From IMG/VR virus record IMGVR_UViG_3300034068_000071, positions 1 to 28,685 of that record: 28,685 nucleotides of DNA. The stretch is one strand, 5' to 3'. A program made the translations under genes and the position numbers. The notes beneath the pieces were generated by a model. It saw nothing but the letters and a program-made list of their open reading frames with translations, made no database searches and was not told where the DNA came from. Source of the DNA: a virus. This document shows, one piece after another, positions 10,809 to 28,685 of the stretch; position 1 is the first letter of the stretch; every line of letters begins with the position of its first letter.

Positions 10809-11115
10809 GGAGCGGCAAAACGATAATCGGTGGATTAATTATGTTCTCTATTTGCTTGTCTAAGTTAGCGTCAATAGTTGGAACATCTAAACCTGCATCC
10901 AACCAACCCTCTACTTGCGCCTGTGTTAAATCAGGGTAAGCAGTAAAGTCCGTTTCACTTGGAGTTGTGCAATTCATAGTTCCGTAACTTGATACTACTA
11001 TTTCATCTTGCGTTGCTATCCTGTTCCAATGAATTACTACGACTACATCAGTTAAGCCATCAAGACTTGGAGCCGTATCAAGTTGATTTACCACCCAATT
11101 AAATTGCGTTGCCAT
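10786..11115 (-). CDS. DUF7936-like protein, 109 aa
   Basis: Starts MATQFNWVVNQLDTAPSLDGLTDVVVVIHWNRIATQD, the N-terminal pattern of small beta-rich proteins found beside tail-fibre genes in many phages (DUF7936-like), with PDLTQAQVEGWLDAGLD near residue 62-78. The ATG overlaps the end of the fibre gene by 17 bases. It may be a tail-tip or fibre-associated protein; function is not established. Confidence 0.7.
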   Translation of the reverse strand: MATQFNWVVNQLDTAPSLDGLTDVVVVIHWNRIATQDEIVVSSYGTMNCTTPSETDFTAYPDLTQAQVEGWLDAGLDVPTIDANLDKQIENIINPPIIVLPLPWQSQVN

Positions 11116-14100
11116 ATTTATTTATTTTAAGTTTTAATTCTTCTATTTGTTTTTGTTGCTCTTGTATTGCTTTTACTAAAGTTGCAGTTATTGCTTGATA
11201 ATCTAAACCGATAAAATCTTCCTTTTGTCCTTTTGTTTGAACGTAAGCCTGTGGAATAAATTCTTTTATCTCTTGTGCAATAAATCCTAAATGCTTTTCA
11301 CTACCTTCTTCATCTTTCATTCGGTATAAAGTAGGCTTTAAACCTAATATTGCATTAAGTCCTATTGTGCTATCCTCAAAATCTTTCTTTTTATTTATAT
11401 CCGATAAAGCAGTGTAAACTCCGGTTGTTTGATTTATATTAGCTTTATCAGTACTATCAAAAGCAAAGATTAAACTTGTTCCTAAATTATTATATATATC
11501 CCAAGCGTGAGATGGTGATTGTAATTTTATCATTGCATAACTACCAACTAATGCTAAATTATAGTTAGTATATCCTTGTGGAGCACTTGTTCCCCCAATT
11601 AATACATTCCCCCCACTTGTAATACGCATTCTTTCGGTATCATTAGTAGCAATTACAATAGGATAAGCTCCACTACTCCACATAACTCTTGCATAAGCGC
11701 CAGCACCAAAGCCTGTATTTGTAGAATTTTCTATACCTTGATAAAAATAACCGCTATCATTTTGCCATTGATTAATAGCAAAATTAGTAGTACCCGTAAC
11801 TCTTATTCTTGCTAATGTAGTTGAATAAGCATCTATAATATAACTTGGCGAACTTGTTCCTATACCTACATTGCCAATTGAAGATAATGTCATAGTAGTA
11901 GAACCACCACTAAAAAAAGTTAATTTATTTCCTGAACCTGTATATAAAAATGCTTCGTTAGTTCCCAATGCTCCCATTTGTAACTTTAAGTTACCGTCAG
12001 TTCCGTAAGAATTAAATAAACCATTATTCCCATAAGAAGAAGCATATACATTTATTTGTGCTCCTGAACTTGTACTACCTGAAATTATATTACTAGAGAA
12101 TGTAGCTGCTCCTGTGGATGCTAATCTTAAAGCTACTGTTCCTGTTGTATAAGGGTCTCCACCATTTGCAGCAGATGGTTTAAATTCTAAATCTCCCCAA
12201 TTCGTTCCGTTTGTAAATATTGCCCAATTTCGTGCAGTTGTTGTTGCAGTAGTTGTTGACATATTAATAATAGATGGATAACCACTATTATTTAATAAAC
12301 TTAATGTTGCAGTATTTGCACTATTTGTAAATCTTCCTGTACCATTAACATCTAATTGATATGCCGGTGTTGAAGTATTTATTCCAAAATATCCATTACT
12401 AGATAATATCCTAGCCCTTTCTACATCGTTTGTTCCTAATATTAAATCCCCACCGTTTCTAGTTCCTATTGCAAAGTTAGTAGCATAGTTACTAAAGAAC
12501 AAAGCTAAACCTGCTCTTGATATACCAAAGTCACTACCTGTTGCAGCCGTTGAATATTGTCTAAAATAAGAAGTAGCCGTTGAACTATTATTTCTAACTG
12601 CTATCTCCGAATAGTCAGTTGTGCTATTTGTTTGTAGTAATATAGTTGCAGCCGCACTTGAATTGAAAACGTGCAACTGTGCCAATGCTGAACTTGGGTT
12701 TCCTATTGTTAAATTAGTTCCGTCAAATTTAAAGTTACTAGAACTTGTTACGCTTGAAGTACCGTTAAAATAAGTTACTTGTCCACTTGTCCCTGTGCCG
12801 GTTACCGGATTTGTTATTGTGCTTTGCTTTGAATTAAAAGTATTCCAATCAGTAGAACTTAAATATCCATCTTGAGAAGTGTTAGCAACTTGAATGCTAA
12901 ATGCTCCTGTTGTATTATTATAACTTAATGGAGTTGTAGCACTTAAAGAAGTTAAACTAATACCACCTAAACCGGCTAAAGTATAAGTCGGTACGTTTAA
13001 AGTATTGGAAACTAAAGTAGCTGAACCACTATTCCCTGTTGTAGTTAAACTTAAAGTGCTTTGTTTATTATTAAATGTTGACCAATCTGCACTACTTAAA
13101 GCACCTCTATTTGCAGCCGAAGCCGTAGGCAAATTAAAAGTATGCGTTGCAGTTGAACTTGATATATTGAAATCAGTTCCACTTGTGCCTACTTGGAAAT
13201 ATTGCACTTGAGCAGTCAAACCATTTAACGCAGTTATTCCCGTTGAGAATGTTGTAATTATTTGGCATAAATGCCCGTTTTGTGTGTGTACTGTTGTAGT
13301 TTTTCCGCCACTATTTGTTGCGTATAACTTAACCGCCAATCTATCCGTAACCGTTAAAGTTGTAGTCGGAACGGCCATTGCAAAAGTGTACATATTTAAA
13401 GTAGTACCGTCGTATAAAATTTCGTTTGAACTTGTTGAAATCAAAGTAAAAGTCGTACCGTCGTATTTATATAACTCTGCATAAAGCTGAGGCGTTCCAC
13501 CGTTAGCACTCATTGAAACATAAATCTCATAGTTCCAATTACCGCCAGGAATATTTAATTGCGCCGGATCGTTAGCATCCGTTAAGAATGAAACTATTAA
13601 TCCGTTTCCGGTTTTAGTAAAGTCAACTCCGGTTCCTGTATCAGCCGTTTTACTCATTTCATAATAAGTAACCCCACCTATAACACCTTGACTTGTTCCA
13701 CCGTTAAGGTAATAAGAAACCGAAGAGCCACCGCCACCACTTGTAGGGAAATCCGCTAAAGTTCCGTCTCCTCTTATATATTGAGAAGCAACACCTGCTG
13801 CGGTTACTGCTAAAGTTCCACTTGTAGTAATTGGAGAAGATGCCACATTAAAAGCACTTGGCATTGTTAAACCAACCGAGGTAACTGTTCCACCTGTCAA
13901 ATCGCTAGTTAAAGCAACTGTTCCTGAAGCGTTAGGGAATGTATATGTATTATTAGTTGTAGCATCTGCAAAAGCAAAAGTCTTTTTGCCATCGTCAGCT
14001 AATCTTAAAGCCAATCCATTTACTGCGCCTACAATATTTGTATAGCCTAAACTAGCTCCAAAGTTAGCCGTTTCAAGTATTCCTATTCCTTGATTAAATC

Positions 14101-14725
14101 TTTGAGACCAAGTAGTAAATAAGTTAGCACCCGAAAATACATTTGAGTTAGTAAACGTTTTTACACCTGAAATAGTTTGAGTAGTCGTTAAAGTTACATA
14201 CCCCGTTAAATCAGGGAAAGTAACTAAAGCACCGTTTCCCGCTACATATTGCGAAGAGATACCGGCAAATCCTATATTGATTGTTCCACTTGTAGTTATT
14301 GGTGAGCCTGTAATTGTTAAAGCGTCCCCACTTTCAGTAACCGCAATACTTGTAACAGTACCCGAAGCACCACTTGCTCTTTGCCAAATACTCCCTGAAT
14401 AAATAACTTGGTCGCCAACTACAAAAGCAATCGGACCAGCTCCGAAGTCAGTCGTTCCGGCAACGTTACATAAATAAACATCTCCTTGGTTAAATGCTCC
14501 GCCATTCGTTAACGTTGGAGTATTAGTATTTGCGTTCCAAGTACCTTGATATTCCATTACTGAATTAGGTAATTGAGATACTAATATTTTACCGTTTACG
14601 TCTAATTGTGGAATACCATTTGAAGCGTTAATAGGCAAAGAGTCTAATACGCCGGTTGTCCCTGTGATTACACCGTTTAAACTTCTAACTTTTGCACCCG
14701 AACTTATGACTATTTGATTGCTCAT
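11099..14725 (-). CDS. Tail fibre with C-terminal S74 intramolecular chaperone domain
   Basis: 1208 residues. The N-terminal part has an attachment-like region followed by YQGTWNANTNTPTL and GDVYLCNVAGT segments (about 78-115). Repeated modules then share VTSxxV..PITTSGTxxxxxAGxxSQY followed by GNG/GDG and FP, twice, as in trimeric beta-helical fibres. Many LSSTDWNTFNSKQS-type repeats and a long beta region follow. The C-terminus (1106-1208) is a peptidase S74 chaperone: SDINKKK places the catalytic serine at S1108 and lysine at K1112, and GFIAQEIKEFIPQAY and YQAITATLVKAIQEQQKQIEELK complete it. It trimerises the fibre and is then cleaved off. The likely role is host receptor binding. Confidence 0.9.
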   Translation of the reverse strand: MSNQIVISSGAKVRSLNGVITGTTGVLDSLPINASNGIPQLDVNGKILVSQLPNSVMEYQGTWNANTNTPTLTNGGAFNQGDVYLCNVAGTTDFGAGPIAFVVGDQVIYSGSIWQRASGASGTVTSIAVTESGDALTITGSPITTSGTINIGFAGISSQYVAGNGALVTFPDLTGYVTLTTTQTISGVKTFTNSNVFSGANLFTTWSQRFNQGIGILETANFGASLGYTNIVGAVNGLALRLADDGKKTFAFADATTNNTYTFPNASGTVALTSDLTGGTVTSVGLTMPSAFNVASSPITTSGTLAVTAAGVASQYIRGDGTLADFPTSGGGGSSVSYYLNGGTSQGVIGGVTYYEMSKTADTGTGVDFTKTGNGLIVSFLTDANDPAQLNIPGGNWNYEIYVSMSANGGTPQLYAELYKYDGTTFTLISTSSNEILYDGTTLNMYTFAMAVPTTTLTVTDRLAVKLYATNSGGKTTTVHTQNGHLCQIITTFSTGITALNGLTAQVQYFQVGTSGTDFNISSSTATHTFNLPTASAANRGALSSADWSTFNNKQSTLSLTTTGNSGSATLVSNTLNVPTYTLAGLGGISLTSLSATTPLSYNNTTGAFSIQVANTSQDGYLSSTDWNTFNSKQSTITNPVTGTGTSGQVTYFNGTSSVTSSSNFKFDGTNLTIGNPSSALAQLHVFNSSAAATILLQTNSTTDYSEIAVRNNSSTATSYFRQYSTAATGSDFGISRAGLALFFSNYATNFAIGTRNGGDLILGTNDVERARILSSNGYFGINTSTPAYQLDVNGTGRFTNSANTATLSLLNNSGYPSIINMSTTTATTTARNWAIFTNGTNWGDLEFKPSAANGGDPYTTGTVALRLASTGAATFSSNIISGSTSSGAQINVYASSYGNNGLFNSYGTDGNLKLQMGALGTNEAFLYTGSGNKLTFFSGGSTTMTLSSIGNVGIGTSSPSYIIDAYSTTLARIRVTGTTNFAINQWQNDSGYFYQGIENSTNTGFGAGAYARVMWSSGAYPIVIATNDTERMRITSGGNVLIGGTSAPQGYTNYNLALVGSYAMIKLQSPSHAWDIYNNLGTSLIFAFDSTDKANINQTTGVYTALSDINKKKDFEDSTIGLNAILGLKPTLYRMKDEEGSEKHLGFIAQEIKEFIPQAYVQTKGQKEDFIGLDYQAITATLVKAIQEQQKQIEELKLKINKYGNAI

Positions 14726-17623: not shown

Positions 17624-19757
17624 TGCCTCTTCTTAGGTTAAGTGAATAATTACTTCTTTGCAAAGCTAAAACTAAATCGTTTCCTTTTAATACAAATTGT
17701 CCACTTCCACCGCCTGTTCCACTCATTGCTCCGGCTGCAAATGTGCTATTCATCATATTGCCTAATTTATTCAATGGCATAATAGCCTCGCTTTGTCCAC
17801 CCTCTCCAACCATTGCAACAGTAGGACGAGAAACAATTCCACCCTCGGCAAACCCTAATATCTTTTTAAATCCACCTATAAAGCCACCTGCAAACCCACC
17901 TTCTCCACCTAAACCAAATGCCATCATAACACCTTGTAATATTGCAGCTTGAATAGCTGCTTCGGCTAATTTCTTAACTAAGTTTCCTGCATAATCTCCT
18001 AATGCTTCTAATGGGTTTTCGCCACTTGCCATTGCATCAAACATAGTCATAAATCCTTCGGTTAAAGTTGTCGCAATTACGTCAGCATATTTTTCATACT
18101 GTTGCGTTAATTTCTTTGCGTCCTTTTGCTTTTCGTCTATGTCAAGAATTTTATAGTTCTTGTCCATATCCTTATAAGCCTTATCTAAATCCTGTATTGC
18201 TTTTGGATTGCTAGATAATGCCATCAATATTTTTATTTCAGCCATAGCCTTTTTGATGGCCTCTTTCTTTTTATCGTAATCGTCTCCGGATAACTTTGTT
18301 TCAATATCTAATTGGTTCCTTACGTTATCTAAAGCCTCCTTTGAAGCCTGTAATTGATTAGCTAACCTTTCTTTTGTTTGTTCCTTTTGGTCTTTTATAT
18401 ATTGATTGTCCGCAGCCTTAAATATCTTGTCTAAAGAATTACCCAAATCTATTGCGTTTTTCTCTAGTCCAATCTTAGCCTGTTCTTTTATATTTAATAT
18501 TTCGTTTGCACTTGCTTTATTAATTTTAGCTTTCTCTAATGCAACTCTTAACTCTTCATTTGTTATTTTATCAGCGTATATTTTAAACTCATAAACATCG
18601 TCTTTATATAGTTGTTGCTTCTTTTTTAATGTTGCTAAATCCGAACTATCAGCAGTTTCTTTTTCTACTTGTGCAGGTTTTGGCGCAGTTGTTCCAGTTA
18701 CATTATAATCACCTGCTTTAAATGATACTTTAGTTAAATCTGCTAAAGTGCCTTTTAATGCCTCAATAACTTTTTGAGTCTTAGTTACTTGATTTGCATT
18801 ATTAGCTAATGCGTCAGTAGTTAAATTTATACCAACTGCAGCAATTTGACCACCAGTGCCACCAAACGCACCTTTTATAGAACCGGCTGCAAAATCCCAC
18901 GCTTTAGTCCAACCCGATAAATCTCCGATTTGCTCTTCTAAATCTGCTGTTTGTAATCTTACTAATTCAGCGTATTTTTCTCCTATTATTTTTGCAGTAC
19001 CTTCTATTTGCGCCTTTCTTATTAAGGCTTGAGCCATTCTATCAATAACTCCAATTAATTTTTCGCCATCATTAATATCGGTCTTTTGTAATTCAACGTT
19101 GCCTTTATGAGCTTCTTTTAATTGTTTTAATGCAGCTTGTCTAGCTTCGGTTGACATTGTAACGTCATTAATTACCGCAACTAAAGACTCGTCACTTGCA
19201 ATCGTTGCTTCAACACCTTTTAAATTATCTATAAAGGATTTCCTTAATTCTGCTTGAGCCTTTTCTAATTCACTTGTATTTCCAATCAAACCCATTATGT
19301 CATCTCCAAATGCTACAATTAAAGAAGATACAACACCCAAAGCAATACCAATACCGGCCGGTCCTGATAAACCTGATACCATTGATTTCAATGCGCCACC
19401 TGCACTTCCTGTTTCTTTGCTTAATCGTTGAAAACTTTCTAATAATGGGTTCAAGTTATTTGCAATACCCATAAATCCATAAGGAGCATCTTGCGCAACC
19501 CTTGACAAGTTTGATAATGCGTTTGTAGCATCCGAAGAAGGCTTTTTAACGGAAGCCATTTTGGTATTAAGACCGTCAATTACAGTATTTAAGTTACTAA
19601 TTTGACTACTTAAATAATTTATTTCTCCAACGTTAGTGGATTTCTTTAATGCTGCTTGAAACTGGCCAAGTAAGTTTTCTGCTTTTTGTAATTGACTAGC
19701 AAAATCTTGCGTATTGGCTCCAATATTAATACTTAAATCTAAACTACTATCTGCCAT
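17613..19757 (-). CDS. Tail tape measure protein, 714 aa
   Basis: Long helical protein that sets tail length. N-terminal coiled-coil (ADSSLDLSINIGANTQDFASQL, then QISNLNTVIDGLNTKM), a hydrophobic glycine-rich region near residues 128-162 (SGLSGPAGIGIALGVVSSLIVAFGDDIMGLIGN), a long lysine-rich helical centre, and a second hydrophobic region near 600-650 (AALQAAILQGVMMAFGLGGEGGFAGGF-like). The C-terminal AEGGIVSRPTVAMVGEGGQSEAIMPL is typical of tape measures. It follows the chaperone pair and precedes the hub. Confidence 0.93.
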   Translation of the reverse strand: MADSSLDLSINIGANTQDFASQLQKAENLLGQFQAALKKSTNVGEINYLSSQISNLNTVIDGLNTKMASVKKPSSDATNALSNLSRVAQDAPYGFMGIANNLNPLLESFQRLSKETGSAGGALKSMVSGLSGPAGIGIALGVVSSLIVAFGDDIMGLIGNTSELEKAQAELRKSFIDNLKGVEATIASDESLVAVINDVTMSTEARQAALKQLKEAHKGNVELQKTDINDGEKLIGVIDRMAQALIRKAQIEGTAKIIGEKYAELVRLQTADLEEQIGDLSGWTKAWDFAAGSIKGAFGGTGGQIAAVGINLTTDALANNANQVTKTQKVIEALKGTLADLTKVSFKAGDYNVTGTTAPKPAQVEKETADSSDLATLKKKQQLYKDDVYEFKIYADKITNEELRVALEKAKINKASANEILNIKEQAKIGLEKNAIDLGNSLDKIFKAADNQYIKDQKEQTKERLANQLQASKEALDNVRNQLDIETKLSGDDYDKKKEAIKKAMAEIKILMALSSNPKAIQDLDKAYKDMDKNYKILDIDEKQKDAKKLTQQYEKYADVIATTLTEGFMTMFDAMASGENPLEALGDYAGNLVKKLAEAAIQAAILQGVMMAFGLGGEGGFAGGFIGGFKKILGFAEGGIVSRPTVAMVGEGGQSEAIMPLNKLGNMMNSTFAAGAMSGTGGGSGQFVLKGNDLVLALQRSNYSLNLRRGNGI

Positions 19758-26979: not shown

Positions 26980-28290
26980 CTAAAATACACTTACTACAAA
27001 TTTAGGAGTATATTCAAAAATCATTCTCATAGCTAAACAGTCGGAGAAATCCGGAGACCGGCCAATCAAAGCCTTTACTTTATCCTTTGGTATTATTCCA
27101 TTGCTACCGTCTTTGTCAACGTGCTTTTGTTTTACTTGCTCTAACTCTTCAATAATTAGTTGCTTTTGTTTGCCGTCTGCATTGATATATAAATTGCTAT
27201 TATTTATTAACTCGGCTAACTTATAATAGCATTGAGATTTAAGGTTATCGTAATTCTCTTTTGTCTTAGTGATTGGGTTTTCTAACGCCCTGGAGTTATT
27301 GACAAAGCCTTTGCACCTAAGTATATCACATACGCCGCCACCTACTCCGTCCTCGTCCACTACGATATTAGAGGTTGCTACTTGATATTCCTTTTGTAGT
27401 TTCTTTATGATTTCAGCGACTTCGACAACGCTTTTACCATTGTATTGAAACAGTTTAACACGATACCCACTCCATAAGCCAATGACAGTACTATCGCTAC
27501 CAAAACGAGCAACGTCGCAAGAAATGTAAGATGCGCCACTAGGTAAATAATCGCTAGTAAAGCAATCAAGTATTTTTTCATAGTCTATTAATTGAGCGGG
27601 ATCGGATAAGTATTCCCAGTTGCCAAATAGCAATCTCTCTTTGCTTACTTTGTCAAGGGATAAAAGGTTTTCTTTATAGTGTTTTGATATGAAAGGATTG
27701 TCATCTATTAACGAAGTTATAAAACGTTTATTGTTTGCTATGCTTCCGTCTTGCTGAGGCTTGTAGAACTCCGAATAAGTCCAATTCTTTGCAGGGTTAC
27801 AAGTATAAAGTATCTTAGGCACTAAGTCGTTTTGATCTAGTTGAAATCTTATCCTTGATTTAATAATGTTCCTAGCCTTATCGTCAACCTGGTTAGCCTC
27901 GTCAATAAATGCGTCCGTAATCTCAAGGGAACCTAATTCGTCAAAGTTAGGGTCACTTGGATAAGAATATAAATCTTTGAGTAGAATAGTTGAGCCGTTA
28001 AAGAACTCTATTTGGCTAGATTGTCCGTTGTACTTATAATGCTTATTAGCGTCTAAGCCTTGCATTTTTGCTACTTGAAAGAATGAAACTAAGGTAGTTT
28101 CTTTGAGCGTCTTTAATACCGCACGGCCTATTAATCCTCTAGTATTGGGATATTTTAATCTTTGCTTTAATTGCCAATAACAACCTAGTGCAGTTTTGCC
28201 ACCACCGGCTCCGCCACCGAATAGTATTTCGTTTGTTGTTTTATCCTCGAGTAAATCGAGTGCGACAGTTTGTTTAATGGATAGTTCCAT
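26980..28290 (-). CDS. terL: Terminase large subunit, 436 aa
   Basis: Start taken at 28290 (MELSIKQTVALDLLEDK), because the longer frame to 28365 reads through the tRNA-like element. The ATPase part has Walker A GGGAGGGKT (25-33) and Walker B ITDAFIDEAN (D130, E131). The RNase H-like nuclease has ISCDVARFG (D259), IVVDEDGVGGG (D312/D314) and PDFSDCLAMRM (D417), the three acidic positions expected. It packages DNA into proheads together with the small subunit. The type resembles headful-packaging terminases such as T4/P22/Sf6-like, but the mode cannot be read from sequence alone. Confidence 0.95.
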   Translation of the reverse strand: MELSIKQTVALDLLEDKTTNEILFGGGAGGGKTALGCYWQLKQRLKYPNTRGLIGRAVLKTLKETTLVSFFQVAKMQGLDANKHYKYNGQSSQIEFFNGSTILLKDLYSYPSDPNFDELGSLEITDAFIDEANQVDDKARNIIKSRIRFQLDQNDLVPKILYTCNPAKNWTYSEFYKPQQDGSIANNKRFITSLIDDNPFISKHYKENLLSLDKVSKERLLFGNWEYLSDPAQLIDYEKILDCFTSDYLPSGASYISCDVARFGSDSTVIGLWSGYRVKLFQYNGKSVVEVAEIIKKLQKEYQVATSNIVVDEDGVGGGVCDILRCKGFVNNSRALENPITKTKENYDNLKSQCYYKLAELINNSNLYINADGKQKQLIIEELEQVKQKHVDKDGSNGIIPKDKVKALIGRSPDFSDCLAMRMIFEYTPKFVVSVF

Positions 28291-28301
28291 AATTTTATTT
28301 G

Positions 28302-28451
28302 TAGTTAGGGCAGGGTTCGAACCTGCAATTTGGGTTACTTTAATTTCGCCTTGCCTTTGGACCATCAGTTATCCAAGAAACAGTCCTTTCCGTTTACACC
28401 CGCCCTTAACGGTCTTGGTTTCGGTGCGTGTTCCTAATTCGCCTCCTAACT
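28302..28451 (-). ncRNA. tRNA-like RNA, 150 nt, between the terminase genes
   Basis: The minus strand ends with a perfect T arm (GCAGG, TTCGAAC, CCTGC at 28326-28310) followed by CCTAACT (28309-28303) and A at 28302. The start, AGTTAGG at 28451-28445, pairs perfectly (7/7) with CCTAACT. Next comes a 3-bp D-arm-like hairpin (GCG, an 11-base loop containing GG, CGC). Instead of an anticodon arm there are about 100 bases with a nested helix, CCAAGA (28418-28413) with TCTTGG (28378-28373) enclosing CCGTT/AACGG. No CCA is encoded and no normal anticodon arm is found. It fills the 164-base gap almost exactly. It could be a split or intron-bearing tRNA, a tRNA mimic, or a relic at an attachment site. 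Confidence 0.6.
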
Positions 28452-28454
28452 ATT

Positions 28455-28685
28455 TTAAATGCTGCTATTATTAGCTACATAAGTTTTCTTTTCTTCCCAG
28501 TTTATTGTCATTCCACCGCTTACCTCTATTTCAGTTGATTGCTTTGCTCTACCCTCTAACCTATCAAGTATTTCTTTATAAGCATTTAAATCGCCTTTAA
28601 ATGCCTTTTGTAATACAACTAAGTCTAATCTCTCAGCAACCGTAAACTCTTCTTTATCTCCTGTTATTGGATTTGTTTGTACTGA
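28455..28685 (-). CDS. Terminase small subunit-like protein, C-terminal part (right-end copy)
   Basis: The reading frame runs from the right edge (at codon 40) to a TAA at 28457-28455. It overlaps the left part by the 127-base repeat; joined, the protein has 115 residues and ends KTYVANNSSI. The C-terminal half has a helical LDLVVLQKAFKGDLNAYKEIL region, then a charged IEVSGGMTINWEEKK end, similar to small terminases. It stops four bases before the tRNA-like element. Confidence 0.8.
   Translation of the reverse strand, partial: SVQTNPITGDKEEFTVAERLDLVVLQKAFKGDLNAYKEILDRLEGRAKQSTEIEVSGGMTINWEEKKTYVANNSSI
28559..28685. repeat. Terminal direct repeat, right copy
   Basis: Identical to bases 1-127; joins to the left end to close the circle. 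Confidence 0.93.

Follow-up and report, generated by a model that had tools for sequence, protein, structure and literature searches.

We consider it probable that the element lying between the two terminase genes of the virus analysed here belongs to a family of phage tRNA-like RNAs in which a constant tRNA-Leu-type shell encloses an exchangeable, structured core of about 20–140 nt, and that these RNAs are matured by RNase P and RNase Z, stable and non-decoding. As judged by comparing members, the family appears to join the constant ends and elbow of a tRNA to an interchangeable RNA core standing where the anticodon arm would be. Neither in Rfam nor in the open-access literature on tRNA-like phage RNAs, tRNA arrays and decoys did we find such a family described, and it has apparently gone unrecognised so far.

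An RNA element in the terminase gap

The window, by which we mean the whole stretch of DNA analysed, is an IMG/VR virus record of 28,685 bases whose minus strand holds nearly all of its long open reading frames (ORFs). A 127-bp direct terminal repeat (positions 1–127 and 28559–28685) splits the gene for the terminase small subunit (TerS), so that the contig probably represents a circular assembly whose opening point falls in this gene. The window also encodes a 1208-aa tail fibre-like protein (11099–14725, minus strand; phrog_1980, phrog_13892). A PHROGs scan of the 76-aa part of TerS gave no match. From the TerS stop codon (TAA, 28455–28457) to the start of the large subunit gene, TerL (ATG, 28288–28290), there are 164 nt, which the element fills but for 3 and 11 nt on the strand of the terminase genes, much as the initial annotation had said in describing it as occupying the gap almost to the base. 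A mechanically called TerL ORF opens at an ATG at 28365 and runs through the T arm; this is probably not the real start.

Table 1. Coordinates of the element, its parts and the flanking terminase genes (positions are those of the window)
Feature	Position	Strand	Remarks
Whole tRNA-like element, 150 nt	28302..28451	-	5' end 28451, discriminator A 28302; same sequence in L001/L117 and L112
Acceptor stem, 5' strand AGTTAGG	28445..28451	-	partner 28303-28309, perfect 7 bp; covaries in relatives
Acceptor stem, 3' strand CCTAACT	28303..28309	-	
D arm	28426..28442	-	GCG 28440-28442, 11-nt loop AATTAGGAACA with GG, CGC 28426-28428
Variable core, 99 nt, replacing anticodon arm and variable arm	28327..28425	-	unrelated to relatives' cores, same position
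T arm GCAGG-TTCGAAC-CCTGC	28310..28326	-	
Candidate inner helices CCAAGA/TCTTGG around CCGTT/AACGG	28373..28418	-	both sequence pairs present; single allele
Alternative helix GGACTGTT/GATGGTCC	28359..28386	-	from minimum-energy fold; crosses CCAAGA/TCTTGG helix
Leader AAAT	28452..28455	-	U at -1; A at -4 common to TerS stop codon
Trailer CAAATAAAATT	28291..28301	-	C after discriminator; 11 nt before TerL
Terminase large subunit (TerL), 436 aa from ATG 28288-28290	26980..28290	-	phrog_2
Terminase small subunit (TerS), 3' part, continuing across contig end	28455..28685	-	by position and conserved neighbourhood

Read from 28451 to 28302, the element is AGTTAGG-AG-GCG-AATTAGGAACA-CGC, 99 nt, GCAGG-TTCGAAC-CCTGC, CCTAACT-A (Table 1). 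The perfect acceptor stem, D-arm hairpin and T arm that the initial annotation had reported are thus all in place, on the minus strand, and the roughly 100 bases said to replace the anticodon arm come to 99; its term for the whole, a tRNA-like RNA with no anticodon arm, was correct and holds for a large family. The nested helix it had drawn in the core fared less evenly, in that both pairs of sequences exist but the 8-bp pairing GGACTGTT/GATGGTCC crosses the outer one, a crossing that in the predicted fold could possibly form a pseudoknot. The core is known as one allele, identical in all three near-identical records that carry it. Sequence searches found no homologue of it beyond these three records, and no complementarity of 11 nt or more was found between the core and the mRNA strand of its own phage. 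Three extra records that matched the core were not tRNA-like and were judged to be chance.

Among known RNA classes, tRNA is one of the closest to the element. With tRNA-Leu of class II the family shares the acceptor stem, the D-arm signature GGCGGAAxxGG, the T arm, the U-1 and A-4 leader and the C after the discriminator; it differs in having no anticodon arm or anticodon and in its unrelated variable cores. The window element has the 7-bp acceptor, the D arm and the T arm, and holds 99 nt of unrelated sequence instead of a 5-bp anticodon arm, a 7-nt loop and an anticodon; removal of this insert restores no anticodon arm. The ARAGORN and Rfam checks that had been proposed recognised no normal tRNA or tmRNA: ARAGORN found 0 tRNA genes and no tmRNA in the window, and Rfam had no match at gathering scores, the tRNA model not matching even with E raised to 5, with the matches at permissive E-values being chance only. 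The window element falls short of the gathering score of the Rfam tRNA model (RF00005), whereas some other members of the family reach it, at 31–40 bits. As a tRNA, a tmRNA, a known Y RNA or an intron-bearing tRNA, it fails the tests applied. It resembles tmRNA in its tRNA-like end domain and in the replacement of the anticodon arm, but family members are 78–210 nt long, keep the D stem and have no tmRNA match in Rfam or ARAGORN. No true tRNA gene was found in the window, where the element is a lone copy.

Folding energy is uninformative for the window element on either strand, and the RNA is no stabler than its dinucleotide shuffles (z=+0.35). Energy alone would not have shown the element to be real; comparison does, because it has relatives at the same junction, because the acceptor stem covaries and because a control with the search pattern reversed gave 0 matches against 49. 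The window copy is a divergent member of the family, with A8 rather than U8 and T15 rather than A15.

We compared the terminase junction across 80 fetched loci with related TerL. TerS and TerL overlap or abut (TATAATGG) with no insert in most of them, and a minority carry inserts of several kinds, namely HNH-like ORFs, small ORFs, repeats, terminator-like hairpins and tRNA-like elements; the junction is an insertion hotspot. The tRNA-like elements occur in the window (also L001/L117 and L112), L092/L241, L022/L023, L027 and L174, making five distinct elements with four unrelated cores that have their position and a CAAA trailer in common. L027 and L174 share a core while the D stem changes from GCG/CGC to GTG/CAC, and the GCG/CGC stem of the window is likewise GTG/CAC in L174 and L022. 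The window core is 32–53% identical to the other junction cores, with flanks 78–82% identical. Presence of the element varies among phages whose TerL proteins are 99–100% identical, and L002 has a TerL protein 100% identical to that of the window yet is without the element, which therefore seems to be gained and lost quickly at this site. A quick TerL tree, excluding L027 and L174, placed L001 among near-identical TerL sequences that lack it. No TerL relatives were found among bacterial genomes, so no host can be named; in the named phage relatives 11b and phi10:1, TerL overlaps the preceding gene and there is no element.

Other inserts at the junction deserve mention in their own right. HNH-like ORFs, recognised by eye from the reading frame, occupy the site in L253, L255, L256, L258, L259, L265 and L270. 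The gap of L103 and L113/L118 holds a different structured insert (GTGCAGTAACC.CAAGGG ... CTGCAC), which by its sequence appears to be a second small RNA type at this junction, and the inserts of L101 and L110/L025 have conserved ends (GGTTTGACCATTTAAA ... AAAATGGTATCTT) around differing middles, again an arrangement of constant ends and a variable core. A repeat insert, CTCGTACTACTCGTAGCACTCG / TACTACGA, varies in unit number among L048, L057, L060, L067, L076 and others.

A family of genes with a covarying shell

Most members of the family are not at the terminase junction. An IMG/VR search with a pattern built from the junction shells, its gap set too long for most tRNA-Leu genes, returned at least 120 matching rows. 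From the matches listed we extracted 183 distinct elements, of which 179 have a perfect 7-bp acceptor, although the extraction pattern made no demand for pairing with the acceptor 5' strand. At least 291 elements in 213 core clusters were found with a looser descriptor over fetched loci. The bulk of the family was gathered with patterns that fix parts of the shell, and its bulk shell statistics are partly built in; both the preponderance of AGTCAGG among shells and the breadth of the family depend on these patterns. The looser pattern used with the reversed control drew its 49 matches from 20 phage records, most over 100 kb, and one of the 49 resembles a tRNA-Leu of the ordinary kind. Genomes often have several members, with 8 within 3.2 kb in G019, 7 in G010 and 6 in G014. 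Among bacterial genomes only 8 contigs had pattern matches, all of them metagenome bins and about half labelled Bacteroidota.

Three annotated phage records, reached via short shell queries, carry members: the isolate Bacteroides phage BS-TP2 (PQ571275), Podoviridae sp. ctfjg026 (MW202828) and the 735-kb LR756501, with acceptor stems GGTATCG, AGTGCAG and AGTTAAG, respectively. The BS-TP2 element lies unannotated at record positions 19550–19657 (about 108 nt), between gp31 and gp32, with HNH genes nearby, and scores 40.1 bits against the Rfam tRNA model with the anticodon arm skipped. MT840030 has an identical element, the upstream flank being 92.3% identical and the downstream flank replaced. 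Searches of named phages by blastn with whole elements returned chance core matches.

Covariation was measured in 8 shells first met by position or sequence and not by pairing. Across them 98.3% of cells are paired and 6 of the 7 acceptor pairs have changed on both sides, giving a covariation score of 0.476 versus 0.161 when shuffled and at most 0.133 for slid versions. The compensatory acceptor and D-arm changes on which the initial annotation had staked its reading are therefore present for the family, and the window and junction elements share the features by which we recognise it, a Leu-type D-arm shell with a covarying acceptor. The constant shell ends about one base after the D stem (near base 26) and resumes 1–2 bases before the T stem. 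In 93% of members a T directly precedes the T stem, which fits a U48 partner of A15, and pairing among the bases 3–8 nt upstream of this stem exceeds that of shuffles.

The flanks are also those of tRNA genes. Family leaders have U-1 in 83% and A-4 in 73% of cases, and a C follows the discriminator in 97%; the corresponding values for true tRNAs in the same loci are 66%, 70% and 97.5%, and the window copy has all three features. In many bacteria U-1 is the leader base met most often, and the protein of RNase P makes contact with N-4 (PMC11143913). Of 311 element instances, only 18 fall within ORFs of at least 80 aa, against a background coverage of 68%. Within 1 kb of true tRNA genes there are 136 of the 311, every one (136/136) on the strand of the tRNA, while in 59 of 59 multi-element loci all elements share one strand and in 169 of 190 elements the strand matches that of the nearest ORF. 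Given this covariation, avoidance of ORFs, shared strand, tRNA-type leader and trailer, and T before the T stem, the elements of the family are genes.

Some loci combine members with other RNAs. The minus strand of L125:1-4957 holds a phage tRNA array of about 4 kb in which ordinary tRNAs alternate with tRNA-like units and small hairpins, and its units include several other shells, such as one with the acceptor CCATTCT/AGAATGG. Other non-decoding tRNA-like families probably exist.

Exchangeable cores and their possible roles

Core length varies between 21 and 138 nt, with a median of about 60, and the average core is more stably folded than its dinucleotide shuffles (mean z -0.74, SEM 0.07, n=221). 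In one core subfamily of eight, both partners have changed in 11 pairs, and the core helix accounts for 4 of these. At orthologous sites, defined by flanks that align on both sides, core identity is bimodal, at either 97–100% or 31–53% (about chance) with no values between. The first class comprises five pairs with flanks 82–94% identical, for example L027/L174, L282/L312 and L300/L323; the second, with flanks 73–93% identical, includes L287/L323, L312/L335, L128/L150 and the terminase junction. Gradual drift was absent from the orthologous sites sampled, which argues against reading the core as filler, as part of a decaying tRNA or as an intron; where cores are identical although their flanks have diverged, either recent transfer or purifying selection could be the reason. 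Some members have a second variable hairpin in the D loop that combines independently with cores (L214/L354/L125; L147/L348/L200). Such inserts are seen in the L147, L233, L348, L214 and L354 elements, and those of L147 and L233 have stems that differ compensatorily around a common ACTGATAAA loop.

In the pathway we envisage, the element would be transcribed along with its neighbours, host RNase P would cut its 5' end and the host tRNA 3' enzymes (RNase Z) its 3' end, and the matured product would accumulate as a stable tRNA-shaped RNA. The shell would provide the stable tRNA-like end and elbow, and the core would be the functional, swappable part, presenting an exchangeable structure whose alleles would either be maintained unchanged under selection or be exchanged entire when recombination takes place in the conserved shell and flanks. 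Having no anticodon arm, these RNAs cannot decode. At the window locus, maturation would split the terminase mRNA and uncouple TerL from TerS, leaving TerL with an 11-nt leader in place of the TerS overlap of most relatives.

What such RNAs might do is a matter for speculation. A part in the arms race between phage and host seems likeliest: with its tRNA shape the RNA might decoy or bind a host factor, for instance a defence nuclease that cleaves tRNAs. An arms race would be expected to bring about such rapid swapping of complete modules at constant positions. Phage tRNA arrays, for which anti-defence roles have been proposed, contain many family members on the same strand; the family differs from their tRNAs in its inability to decode, and the window copy differs in standing alone between terminase genes. 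Our tentative extension of these ideas, possible though well short of an expectation, is that the RNAs are modular effectors, in which a host-matured tRNA shell is the stable carrier of interchangeable cores, every core binding its own host factor or serving as a decoy for it, and cores pass between phages as host defences change.

Alternatively, the element may serve only to punctuate processing, with an RNase P/Z cut yielding separate TerS and TerL mRNAs and the core being filler. Tracts of this sort have a precedent, as mascRNA-type tRNA-like folds direct RNase P and RNase Z cleavage of longer transcripts, and the family likewise has a tRNA-like fold that would be expected to direct such cleavage, but it occurs in a prokaryotic virus, has an exchangeable core and is found both between operon genes and in tRNA arrays. 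Punctuation would suit an element set between co-directional genes with flanks like those of true tRNAs, and in most relatives TerS and TerL overlap and the element is missing, so that its insertion does alter the operon. We nevertheless think it unlikely, because cores stay nearly identical between diverged flanks or else are replaced outright, one core subfamily covaries, and members also occur in tRNA arrays. The initial annotation had listed an RNase P/Z processing signal among its readings; the signal itself agrees with the flanks but is insufficient as the whole function of a family with most members off the terminase junction, 136 of 311 near tRNAs, and cores conserved or replaced as units.

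Somewhat less probable again is a selfish or neutral cassette, in which gene conversion driven by homing endonucleases spreads cores via the conserved shell target with no benefit to the phage. HNH-like ORFs at the same TerS-TerL site (L253–L270), HNH genes near the BS-TP2 element, the mosaics formed by D-loop inserts and cores, and the presence or absence of the element among phages with nearly identical TerL are all consistent with this idea, as is the ability of SegB to cleave within tRNA genes (PMC13096335). By itself, however, it leaves the covariation of cores and the retained RNA processing signals unexplained, and homing endonuclease conversion may be the mechanism of swapping rather than a competing function.

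The remaining explanations carry very little weight. Degenerate tRNA-Leu genes that lost the anticodon arm and are now in decay would account for the Leu-type D-arm signature, and the arrays also hold ordinary tRNA-Leu; but decay is contradicted by the compensatory acceptor and D-stem changes, and the nearly universal perfect acceptor among the elements listed and the structured, conserved cores also speak against it. A tRNA with an unusual intron, also suggested initially, is more improbable still: ARAGORN with introns allowed makes some calls on members, but the constant parts contain no anticodon arm, the isotypes called are inconsistent (Pro, Tyr, Ser, Cys, Phe, Gln), and the inserts are too short for group I introns. 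Equally improbable is a Y-RNA-like partner of a phage or host Ro60 protein, a tRNA mimic of the YrlA type (a bacterial Y RNA), which has a tRNA-like fold that does not decode; the ends of YrlA form a Ro-binding stem, whereas the family RNAs end in an acceptor stem with tRNA processing flanks, and in seven member-rich loci the only Rfam matches are to RF00005, with no tmRNA or Y-RNA-type model. In its favour, Ro/TROVE proteins are encoded by some jumbo phages, and the cellular form of these proteins is partnered by a tRNA-like RNA (PMC7824862).

The family of tRNA-like RNAs with a constant shell and an exchangeable core has consequences for how phage genomes are read. These genes are passed over by annotation programs or wrongly labelled as odd tRNAs, and the phages that carry them range in size from 28 kb to several hundred kb, in places with more than one member in a genome. 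The BS-TP2 isolate, with its unannotated member, makes the question of function testable. If the cores are functional, phages own a tRNA-scaffolded, exchangeable RNA toolkit; this would bear on the reason for phage tRNA arrays and would offer naturally evolved RNA scaffolds.
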